From Caballeronia sp. NK8 (GTDB lineage Bacteria > Pseudomonadota > Gammaproteobacteria > Burkholderiales > Burkholderiaceae), in contig NZ_AP024322.1 of the NCBI RefSeq assembly GCF_018408855.1, positions 2,914,001 through 2,978,000 on the forward strand: DNA of 64,000 nt. Reading direction: 5' to 3'. The position numbers were made by a program, and so were the translations under genes. This document shows positions 7,693 through 64,000 of this stretch, in pieces (the first letter of the stretch is position 1; each line of letters begins with the position of its first letter). The notes beneath the pieces were generated by a model. It was not told the DNA's origin, made no database searches, and saw only the letters and a program-made list of their open reading frames with translations.

Positions 7693-7727
7693 AAAAAAGG
7701 CGCGTTGTGTAGCTAACGCGCCTTTTT
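7693..7727 (-). terminator. Rho-independent terminator after binding protein copy 2
   Basis: AAAGGCGCGTT and AACGCGCCTTT form a long stem around an eight-base loop, with A and T runs on both sides, so it may work in both directions. It lies just past the stop of the 7756-8934 gene and therefore separates the two paralogous binding-protein genes into independent transcripts. Confidence 0.8.
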
Positions 7728-8934: not shown

Positions 8935-9454
8935 TGATTTGCGCCCCGTAAATCGTGTTTTGCGTGAAGAACCGCCTGCCGATATGCCCGAATTTAGCGC
9001 CCGCTTCGAATCGCCGACCAGCGGGTCGGGAAATGCAGTTTAGCGGACGAAAGCGCCGTGCAGCAAGCGATTTGAAGGGTTTCCGCTGCGCTTTGGCATC
9101 GTTTTTTCAGCGCATTTGCAACGCGGCAGCGCAAGGCGGAAAACCTCGGGAAAACCCCCGCTTAAAATCACCCGGCGGGATTATTCGTATTATCGACGGG
9201 CAAATAAAAAAGCGCTGTTGGACTCATCCAACAGCGCTTTTCGGTCGGGCACTTTGTGCCTCATGTCTCCTCGTTCTCCACCTCAAAAATCTGGGTGCAA
9301 CAGAACTAGGACGCATGTTAAAGAACGCAACACTGCACGACAACCTAGCATTTACCCTAGTGGTGCACAAAAGCACCTCATCGGGGCGTATTTCTTGCAA
9401 TACAGCGTGCTTCTCGCAATTGCACTATTGGTTCGGATCGCGAACCAAATACCT
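8935..9454. other. Gene-free stretch between the two Liv clusters
   Basis: About 520 bases. The left part must hold the promoter of the 7756-8934 gene (minus strand), but I cannot name -35/-10 boxes. The middle holds a strong bidirectional-looking terminator (9207-9241). Near the livM stop there is an eight-pair hairpin TTGGTTCG-GATCG-CGAACCAA (9428-9448) without a T-run. A 24-codon minus-strand ORF (9190-9264) has a good GAGGAG site but reads through the terminator, so I do not call it. Confidence 0.6.
9207..9241 (-). terminator. Terminator of the second Liv-type operon
   Basis: AAAAGCGCTGTTGGA and TCCAACAGCGCTTTT pair over 15 bases around a short loop (ctca), with an A-run on the left (a T-run on the minus strand). 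It lies about 215 bases past the livM stop and is the likely end of the livG-F-binding protein-H-M transcript. The symmetric T-runs would allow action on either strand. Confidence 0.8.
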
Positions 9455-25348: not shown

Positions 25349-25382
25349 AAAGGCCGCTTCGATTCGCGTCGAAGCGGCCTTT
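25349..25382 (-). terminator. Rho-independent terminator after the YbdK-type gene
   Basis: AAAGGCCGCTTCGA and TCGAAGCGGCCTTT pair over 14 bases with a six-base loop, preceded on the left by more A residues (T-run on the minus strand). It lies about 40 bases past the stop of the 25424-26536 gene. Confidence 0.85.
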
Positions 25383-62753: not shown

Positions 62754-63638
62754 TCAATAGAATCCCGGCTCGCCCGGCGGCCGGGTCTTGAAGCGCTTGT
62801 GCACCCAGTAATATTGCTCCGGCATGCGCGGAATCTGCTCTTCCAGAAACGCGTTCATGCGGCGCGCGTCGGCTTCGTCGTCGCCGGTCGGGTAGTCGTC
62901 CCACGGCTTGAAGATCTTCAGCCGATAACCCTTGTAGTCCGGCAACACCTCGCCGATGAACGGCACGACCTGCGCCTTGCCCGTCTTCGCGAGCCGGCCG
63001 ACGGCCGTCAGCGTGCACGTGGGGATGCCGAAGAACGGCACGAACGTGGAGTTGCGCATGCCGTAGTCCATGTCCGCGCCGAGCATCACCGGCTTGCGAT
63101 CGCGCAGCCAGCGCAGCACGATGCGCGCGCTGTCGGCGCGGCTCGCCATGTCGGCGCCGAAGCGGGCGCGCTGCGTCTTCGCGAGTTCCTCGATCTGCGG
63201 ATTCGAGAACGGCTGATACAACGAACCGCAGCGCCGATGCAGCGAGTAATTGAGAAAGATCGAGCCCGCCTCGATACCGACGAAATGCAGCCCGAGAAAG
63301 AGCGTGGGCGGGAGGTCGGGATCGGTGAGATCGACGGCGCTGTCGACTTCGATCAGCTTTTCGAGCTTTTTCGCCGAGCCGAACCATTGCACGCTGCGCT
63401 CCACGTAGCTGCGGATCGCGTGCCGGAAGTGCTTCTGCGCGATGTCCTCGCGTTTTTCGTCGGACCACTCAGGAAAGCACAGCTTCAGATTCGTATGGAC
63501 GATGCGTCTGCGGCGGCTCGGAATCTGATAGAGCAGCCAGCCGAGGGCATCGCCGAAACGCGCCGTGATGCCGTAAGGGATGAGCGCCAGGAACTTGAGA
63601 AAGCCGATGGCGAGCGCCACGCCGATGCGCCCTAGCAT
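62754..63638 (-). CDS. Lipid A lauroyl-type acyltransferase (LpxL/HtrB family)
   Basis: 294 residues from the ATG at 63636-63638 ([21 protein letters not shown], a membrane anchor). The Hx4(D/E) acyltransferase motif is [11 protein letters not shown] (near 135), and the family blocks [10 protein letters not shown]-like ([18 protein letters not shown]) and [13 protein letters not shown] at the end are present. Adds a secondary acyl chain to lipid A at the inner membrane. Divergent from metK. LpxL versus LpxM cannot be separated from sequence alone. Confidence 0.92.
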
Positions 63639-63738: not shown

Positions 63739-63913
63739 TATAATAGAACCTTCGCCGAGTTAATGGACAACTTGCGGGGCGAAGCGAGTCGGAGTCTTCT
63801 TATGTTTCGAGAAGAAGCCGGCCCGGAAAGACATCCGCTAAAGCGTCGCCGCTTCAGACTCCAAACGAAGACGGCTACGTGAATATCAACCGTACTCAAA
63901 TGGAGTCTGAAGC
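63739..63913 (+). promoter_or_regulatory. metK promoter and structured leader, candidate riboswitch
   Basis: -10 TATAAT at 63739-63744 predicts a leader of about 160 bases. It contains a stem TCTTCT/AGAAGA (63795-63815), AAGCG-TCGC-CGCTT (63841-63854), and a perfect 13-base inverted repeat GCTTCAGACTCCA (63851-63863) / TGGAGTCTGAAGC (63901-63913) whose right arm contains the GGAG ribosome binding site and ends at the start codon. GGAGTC at 63791-63796 could pair instead with GACTCC of the left arm and free the site. This is the layout of a translational switch, plausibly S-adenosylmethionine-responsive. Confidence 0.6.
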
Positions 63914-64000
63914 GTGTCGAACGACTATCTCTTTACTTCCGAATCCGTTTCCGAAGGTCACCCCGACAAGGTCGCCGATCAAATCTCCGACGCCATCCTC
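63914..64000 (+). CDS. metK: S-adenosylmethionine synthetase MetK, 5' end only
   Basis: First 29 codons, running off the right edge: (M)[22 protein letters not shown]..., the invariant MetK N-terminus with the catalytic histidine in EGHPDK. Makes SAM from ATP and methionine. Start codon GTG at 63914-63916, preceded at eight bases by GGAG, which lies inside the leader inverted repeat. The nearest upstream ATG (63899-63901) is out of frame. Confidence 0.96.

Follow-up and report, generated by a model that had tools for sequence, protein, structure and literature searches.

A SAM-II/V-like pseudoknot in the metK leaders of beta-proteobacteria as a probable SAM-responsive translational switch

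The leader of metK in Caballeronia sp. NK8 is probably a SAM-responsive translational OFF switch and an unannotated variant of the SAM-II/V kind of riboswitch, and the cell would probably use it to shut down the production of SAM synthetase when SAM is plentiful. In the computational analysis, the leader is conserved from the TATAAT to the start codon, P1 and the GCGG/CCGC pseudoknot covary, the elements and core letters follow the SAM-II/V order, the models of metK leaders and of SAM-II-like leaders detect each other in part, and the pairing of the ribosome-binding site with a stretch 3' of the aptamer coevolves. The element is widespread in beta-proteobacteria.

How beta-proteobacteria control SAM synthetase has been named as a gap. 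In the available text of Leyn et al. (2014; PMC4239095), the regulator of metK in this group is described as not known and the authors' attempts as having failed, and a footnote in the available part of a 2022 paper mentions a suspected regulatory element in the metK 5'UTR of B. thailandensis that was confirmed in unpublished data. No description of the metK element was found in the open-access literature searched. With the element, its structure, its kinship and its range now given, the question of metK regulation becomes directly testable; moreover, the published metXZ element is linked to SAM-II, of which Rfam misses a common relative.

The metK leader and its inverted repeat

The window is the whole analysed stretch of 64,000 nucleotides, and all positions refer to its first letter. 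The gene at its right end was correctly named metK in the preliminary description (TIGR01034, 602.6 bits); it encodes 395 amino acids in the genome, the first 29 codons of which lie inside the window, and its divergent neighbour at 62754-63638 (-) encodes a lipid A lauroyl acyltransferase (NF005399, 550.3 bits). The features of the leader are collected in Table 1.

Table 1. Features of the metK leader from the promoter side to the start codon
Feature	Position in the window	Strand	Evidence or remark
TATAAT, presumed -10 box	63739..63744	+	TATAAT just 5' of P1 in 105 of 109 leaders
P1 5' strand, CTTCGCC	63750..63756	+	Among 48 sequences, 95.5% of cells paired and two-sided changes in 3 of 7 pairs
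GAGTTAA, presumed to be the third strand in the major-groove triplex of a SAM-II/V-type aptamer	63757..63763	+	T60 and T61 in 48 of 48
P2a 5' strand, GAC	63766..63768	+	Partner GTC at 63845-63847
Pseudoknot P2, descending strand, CTT + GCGG	63771..63777	+	GCGG/CCGC helix covaries
P1 3' strand, GGCGAAG	63778..63784	+	Helix in the 48-sequence alignment
Variable P3 hairpin	63785..63829	+	Stem CGAGTCGGAGTCTTCT/AGAAGAAGCCGGCCCG 75% complementary; contains GGAGTC at 63791
A-rich linker ahead of the ascending strand	63830..63834	+	GACAT here, AAAU in most relatives
Pseudoknot P2, ascending strand, CCGC + UAAAG	63835..63843	+	TAAA invariant, 48 of 48
P2a 3' strand, GTC	63845..63847	+	Overlaps the P4 base
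P4 hairpin GCGTcGCCgCTTC...GAAGacGGCtACGT, candidate anti-sequestor	63843..63880	+	RNAalifold on 80 leaders
Sequestor (anti-Shine-Dalgarno), left arm	63850..63863	+	Repeat and coevolution with the right arm
Sequestor, right arm, which holds the Shine-Dalgarno GGAG (63902-63905) and extends into the start codon	63901..63914	+	Repeat and coevolution
metK, GTG start	63914..64000	+	TIGR01034

The preliminary description had reported a 13-base perfect inverted repeat whose right arm carries GGAG and reaches up to the GTG start. Its arms and coordinates are exact, and the repeat extends by one pair to 14 perfect pairs (CGCTTCAGACTCCA at 63850-63863 with TGGAGTCTGAAGCG at 63901-63914), the outermost of which takes in the G of the start codon. 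With -34.4 kcal/mol, the local hairpin is far more stable than its shuffled versions, which average -17.5 (z -5.6; none of 200 shuffles equal). A search of the 64-kb window for perfect inverted repeats of 13 bp or more with a spacer of 3-60 gave eight overlapping matches at four distinct places, where 20 first-order Markov resamples led to an expected mean of 0.35 hits and a maximum of 3. The length of the repeat is unusual for the window, yet not unique there, so that conservation rather than length has to decide. The other such repeats with short spacers, at 7694-7727, 9208-9241 and 25349-25382, are likely terminators.

At least 13 perfect pairs are present in 29 of 30 same-genus leaders, and at most nine in all 79 other leaders checked. 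By comparison of these leaders, the exact repeat of 13-14 bp is a genus-specific lengthening, among the genera examined, of a family-wide anti-Shine-Dalgarno pairing.

Because the TATAAT adjoins P1, the transcript should begin at the aptamer, with a start predicted from the TATAAT position near 63751; a start downstream of 63863, which had been named as an argument against a switch, is thus not what the conserved TATAAT predicts. The sigma-70 scan gave no full promoter match, owing to the absence of a good -35 box.

Conservation and covariation of the RNA core

The leader (63740-64000) was found near full-length in 57 of 58 same-genus genomes, the single miss being a genome of 60% completeness, and among 398 genomes of the family 380 had a match, although matches there may be partial. 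The plasmid collection gave no match. For the comparison, 110 metK leaders of related genomes were used, 80 from five genera of the family and a further 30 from seventeen genera, of which sixteen had not been represented before, and the core is present throughout, with a degenerate copy in L111. It consists of P1 enclosing GAGUUAA..GAC-AA-CUUGCGG, usually a variable hairpin, and then CCGCUAAAGCGUC, in the order P1 - GAGUUAA - nn - GAC - AA - CUU - GCGG - P1' - (P3) - AAAU - CCGC - UAAAG - CGUCGCC; P4, whose left strand and loop carry the anti-Shine-Dalgarno, GGAG and the start codon follow 3' of it. The sequence of P3 is not conserved, and P3 is absent from L112, L113 and L117. In the reduced genome of L111 (1.2 Mb), the degenerate core reads GCCCACTTGCTGGGC and CTGTTAAAACACC, and its ribosome-site pairing is poor (rank 33 of 35). 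L112 and L113, both without P3, carry a compensated pseudoknot GCAG/CTGC and an SAH riboswitch (RF01057) downstream on the same strand of the same 3-kb locus.

Two alignments were evaluated. A1 contains the window and 79 distinct leaders, L082 having been removed as identical to L074; within the first five genera, none of the 24 pairs of the RNAalifold helices covaries, as the core is nearly invariant. The hairpin GAGUU/AACUU, which RNAalifold proposed as P2, is broken in relatives with GAUUU and was retained solely as a rival or ligand-free fold. A2 contains 48 of the 111 leaders, hand-picked for diversity and without L111. Here 96.5% of the cells are paired, and two-sided changes are seen in 9 of 27 pairs, the pseudoknot included, where shuffles average 3.8 and none of 500 reaches as many. 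Pairing falls to 33-55% when the partners are slid. The P4 helix reaches 95.2% with 4 of 11 pairs changed on both sides, and the pseudoknot 99.5% with 2 of 4, occurring as GCGG/CCGC, GCAG/CTGC and ACGG/CCGT. The RNA thus contains an H-type pseudoknot of the SAM-II/V kind, in which P2 is formed by the P1 loop and a 3' strand and covaries.

A wider pair count covered 109 family, 83 order and 11 class loci, without the unparsed L111 and L120 (family) and L235, L237 and L286 (order); the parse of L005 is spurious, its true letters being GAGTT. Since the parser requires UU and UAAA, their invariance is taken from A2. At pair 1 of the pseudoknot, G-C is replaced by A-U in two cells and by G-U in six; pair 2 is C-G without exception (203 of 203), and pair 4 is mostly G-C with four A-U. 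At two-letter junctions, pair 3 occurs as G-C (149), A-U (19) and G-U (7) with seven mismatches (five A-C, two G-G); one more A-U, together with one A-C, is found in a class locus. In the loci with a one-letter junction (nine of the order, nine of the class), pairs 3 and 4 are mostly missing, and most class loci show a 2-bp pseudoknot like that of SAM-V. For P2a (GAC/GUC), the 57 own combinations pair better than swapped ones, and none of 2000 swaps scored equally high; GAAC/GTTC and CGTC/GACG are among the variants.

That metK leaders are short, with the promoter directly upstream, would suit an ordinary ribosome-site hairpin beneath promoter or other DNA signals that account for the upstream conservation. 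Covariation in the pseudoknot and P1, coevolution of the anti-site and the occurrence of the same core before other genes largely refute this explanation, which we regard as most improbable.

The putative ligand pocket

In SAM-V, the binding site is made up of the third-strand letters U8-U10, the descending letters U19, U20 and G21 and the ascending letters U47-A50, according to the available text of PMC6061858. G59, U60 and U61, U72, U73 and G74, and U39-A42 (63839-63842) of the window align with these positions: G59 corresponds to U8, U60 and U61 to U9 and U10, and U39, A40, A41 and A42 to U47, A48, A49 and A50. Every mapped letter is kept in the window except G59. In A2, T60, T61, T72 and T73 (U9, U10, U19 and U20 of SAM-V) are invariant in 48 of 48, as is TAAA, which corresponds to the adenine reader, the triples and the aminoacyl contact. 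From this letter mapping, a triplex is predicted in the metK leader.

The letter that is not kept, U8, contacts the adenine-reading U47 in SAM-V. Its place is taken by G in 105 of the 109 parsed family leaders (L118, whose P4 end was not found, was left out) and in 51 of 62 metK leaders of the order set, the other 11 having U, and the metX elements of the family have U. This G may be read as the sign that the aptamer, though shaped like SAM-II/V, now has a pocket for a different ligand, such as SAH, methylthioadenosine, a polyamine or another SAM-related compound; in some loci a MATE transporter gene also lies behind relatives of the element, and a ligand change by a few letters, to spermidine, has been published for SAM-I (available text of PMC10853860). 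We consider such a shift unlikely, as the gene encodes SAM synthetase, the contacts U9, U10, U19, U20, U47, A48, A49 and A50 do not vary among the 48 aligned sequences, and the U persists in part of the order-set metK leaders.

Kinship with SAM-II by covariance models

The preliminary description had recognised no SAM-class consensus by eye, and the scan it proposed, with all SAM classes of Rfam 15, gave no match to the window leader at E up to 10 (SAM-I, SAM-II, SAM-III, SAM-IV, SAM-V (RF01826), SAM-VI, SAM/SAH and SAH among them), nor did the Rfam SAM families match six family leaders at E up to 1; but the likeness to SAM-II and SAM-V becomes apparent once the longer leader and its relatives are used. 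As a positive control, the SAH riboswitches in L112 and L113 were recognised. The best chance matches on the leader were microRNA models on the opposite strand.

Two covariance models were built, R1 from metK leaders and R2 from metX/SAM-II-like leaders, and compared with SAM_alpha (RF00521; gathering cut-off 36 bits). In the source genome, R1 has one significant site, metK (3.5e-23), with a runner-up at 0.5. Fifteen of 369 class genomes matched, about 12 of them credibly, and these include the metK leaders L123, L127 and L130 and the second copies of tandems. The R1 matches in L133, L134 and L137 were rejected as chance, since they have no recognisable core and two lie within long ORFs.

SAM_alpha matches the first copies of the tandems. 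Copy 1 of L126 scores 37.1 bits, above the cut-off, and copy 2 is metK-type; in L219, a SAM_alpha element of 36.9 bits, likewise above the cut-off, is followed by a metK-type copy that Rfam misses. The single element of L136 (gamma) is reached by both models, SAM_alpha at 27.7 bits (below the cut-off) and the metK model at 29.8 bits. Of eight SAM_alpha loci, six were matched by R1 with filters off on the SAM_alpha interval itself (E up to 0.12); in L147 this interval was missed, and L150 gave only E 1.9.

In the reverse direction, R2 found the metK leaders L127 (21.1 bits), L130 (17.3 bits) and, weakly, L123 (8.1 bits). In 31 metK-bearing family loci, its five best matches are all metK leaders (E 0.002-0.1), and of the 12 matches below E 1 nine are metK leaders and three are not. 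Same-genus leaders scored 4.6-7.5 bits or were unmatched, with L003, L014, L020 and L030 at only 4.6 bits (E 6.7), so that the homology with the SAM-II/V kind found by model comparison is weak for the window's genus (4.6 bits).

Upstream of metX, L143 scores above the RF00521 cut-off (36.2 bits), and GCGCCGATTTG...TTGCGGGCGC...AAATGCGGCTAAAG is present in 26 of 29 metX loci of the family. The metX gene of the source genome has a SAM-II-like element 61 bases before its ATG (L188:1759-1856, -); SAM_alpha gives this leader 15.3 bits (E 2.58; C1:53724-53800), which is no evidence by itself. A whole-genome scan with RF00521 at E up to 10 was discarded, as it matched 15 of 15 genomes but also 14 of 14 controls, which leaves as evidence just the 2 of 15 that exceeded the cut-off. 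We read the model chain as common descent from SAM-II-like aptamers, and the direct tie of the window's genus to them runs through R1 and the shared letters.

Tandems of a SAM-II-like copy and a second copy before the gene occur in L219, L122, L124, L126, L128 and L129, and by eye in L237; the first copy is mostly trailed by a terminator-like hairpin with a T run. On or near the SAM-II-like copies of L219 (1367-1482, -), L122, L124, L126, L128 and L129, there are also matches below cut-off to RF02424 (Bp2_287, 'Burkholderia sRNA'), in L219, L122, L128 and L129 on the strand opposite to SAM_alpha. As the RF02424 consensus holds the reverse complement of the SAM-II core, this family may be a misoriented riboswitch.

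Pairing of the ribosome site and the proposed switch

The left part of P4 and the start region form duplexes of -16.6 kcal/mol on average against -13.7 kcal/mol in permuted combinations (88 distinct pairs, 108 genomes; 0 of 20,000). For 35 representatives, the own duplex has -13.1 kcal/mol against -9.8 kcal/mol when swapped, with 0 of 20,000 permutations as good, and 15 of them place their own pairing in the top 5, 6 in the worse half; L013 was left out of the pairing test, its start not having been found by the script. The right arm varies by genus (GGAGTCTGAAGC, GGAGTCTGCAAC, GGAGCCTGAAAA, GGAGAACC, GGAATATGC) and the left part changes in step, i.e., the complementarity of the anti-Shine-Dalgarno and the ribosome site coevolves across genera. 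Covariation of the stem across the Burkholderiaceae, which the preliminary description had put forward for checking, is therefore found for the pairing of site and anti-site, but the exact 13-base stem is specific to the genus and the alternative pairing with GGAGTC is not conserved. This GGAGTC, at 63791, had been suggested to compete for the left arm; it exists, but as a competitor it falls short, since of the 30 same-genus leaders just 4 have it in the corresponding stretch and of the 79 others none, and P4 (63843-63880) is the better candidate. P4 overlaps the pseudoknot at GCGTC and the sequestor at CTTC.

In the proposed mechanism, SAM would be bound by the pseudoknot, in a triplex of GAGUUAA, CUU and UAAA, and would stabilise pairs formed by GCGUC (63843-63847), a stretch on which P4 too is based. 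With P4 disrupted, its left strand CUUCAGACUCC would pair with GGAGUCUGAAG, hiding the Shine-Dalgarno sequence and the start codon (OFF), and in the absence of SAM, P4 as the anti-sequestor would form first during transcription and leave the ribosome site open (ON). In leaders whose anti-site falls within the P4 loop, P4 may instead remain intact and pair with the ribosome site through this loop alone.

When GCGUC was blocked in an equilibrium model, the opening cost rose in 56 of 108 leaders, fell in 8 and was the same in 44 (mean +0.35 kcal/mol), with zero change in the same-genus leaders L003, L020 and L030. Equilibrium folding thus gives the proposed switching step little support, and none in the window's genus, where the sequestor dominates at equilibrium with an opening cost of about 13 kcal/mol. 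P4 and the sequestor are both supported by alignment or coevolution and overlap at CTTC, and the little effect of blocking GCGUC means that the model needs kinetics or tertiary energy. Since the 14-bp sequestor dominates at equilibrium in this genus, switching would probably be kinetic.

The same dominance would also be expected of a leader that is constitutive or controlled by a protein, be it MetK or an RNA-binding regulator, or whose hairpin merely sets a low translation, and constitutive expression of metK is judged possible in the available text of Leyn et al. (PMC4239095). The core letters, which are those of a metabolite aptamer with a known pocket, and the tandems with Rfam-recognised SAM-II copies, a SAM riboswitch pattern according to the available part of PMC9481103, leave this explanation only a slim chance. 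A metabolite-controlled translational switch, as suggested in the preliminary description, is still the most likely function of a structured leader whose 3' end can pair with the ribosome site, but without GGAGTC as the competing element.

Range and downstream genes

With strict filters, R1 detected the element in 182 of 399 Burkholderiales genomes and in 91 of 158 genera. Among the matches listed, 84 order loci were read, comprising the 24 best and 60 hand-picked ones, and metK lies downstream in 60 of them. A scan of named genomes for the exact pattern yielded at least 120 loci, 80 of which were examined: GCTAAA lies downstream in all 80, metK follows in 74 (72 recognised by motif, L305 and L332 by reading the locus), five stand before a MYDC protein, and one ends too soon. 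The genera with the exact pattern include Burkholderia, Paraburkholderia, Caballeronia, Cupriavidus, Ralstonia and Pandoraea, and also Achromobacter, Bordetella, Roseateles, Thauera, Dechloromonas and Chromobacterium.

A metK-type or close element also stands 5' of a protein of about 100 residues beginning with MYDC or MFDC, for which Pfam and NCBIfam gave no match, in L233, L234, L236, L238, L239, L265, L267, L270-L272, L275, L276 and L285, and also in L319, L339, L342, L351 and L359. In the loci read between L233 and L285, this gene is followed by a MATE-family transporter gene (MatE, PF01554, tested for the neighbour in L234 only). In other families of the class, elements precede a MoxR-like AAA ATPase in L125, L126 and L128 (AAA_5 and bpMoxR tested for L126) and other genes in L122, L129, L131 and L135.

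Comparison with known riboswitches

The SAM/SAH riboswitch (RF01727) likewise lies 5' of metK, forms a small pseudoknot and acts on translation. That class is described only from Rhodobacterales, as far as the available source text goes, and has no match here at E up to 10.

SAM-V, as described in the available text of PMC6061858, resembles the metK leader in the P3 stem-loop after P1, the adenines before the ascending strand, the short P2a and the presumed translational OFF control. In contrast to SAM-V, P2a does not contain the Shine-Dalgarno sequence here, the platform of P4 and sequestor lies downstream, P2 is longer, and there is no Rfam match.

With SAM-II (RF00521), the metK leader shares P1, a GA-N-UU third strand, CUUGC, the A-rich linker, GCUAAAG and the pseudoknot in the same order, and a SAM-II copy is found in tandem with a metK-type copy in one locus. 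The metK-type differs in being undetected by RF00521, in its lower pseudoknot of 4 bp (GCGG/CCGC) instead of 2, in the extra P3 hairpin of most members, in P2a (GAC/GUC), in the third-strand U that is usually G, and in its translational platform of P4 and a separate anti-Shine-Dalgarno. We entertain, though with considerable doubt, that the metK-type is a separate SAM riboswitch class of beta-proteobacteria, derived from SAM-II through the fixed third-strand change from U to G, the longer P2 and the anti-Shine-Dalgarno platform, which would govern metK and, in several families, the small protein and the MATE transporter, and whose pocket may read SAM differently or another SAM-related ligand. 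The variant of the SAM-II/V kind remains the preferred reading.

Finally, the metXZ element of beta-proteobacteria is given in the available text of Leyn et al. (2014; PMC4239095) for metX and metZ, together with a terminator and without a named ligand. The SAM-II-like element of the family metX leaders is probably this same element, and the metK leader shows the same order of boxes as these metX leaders.
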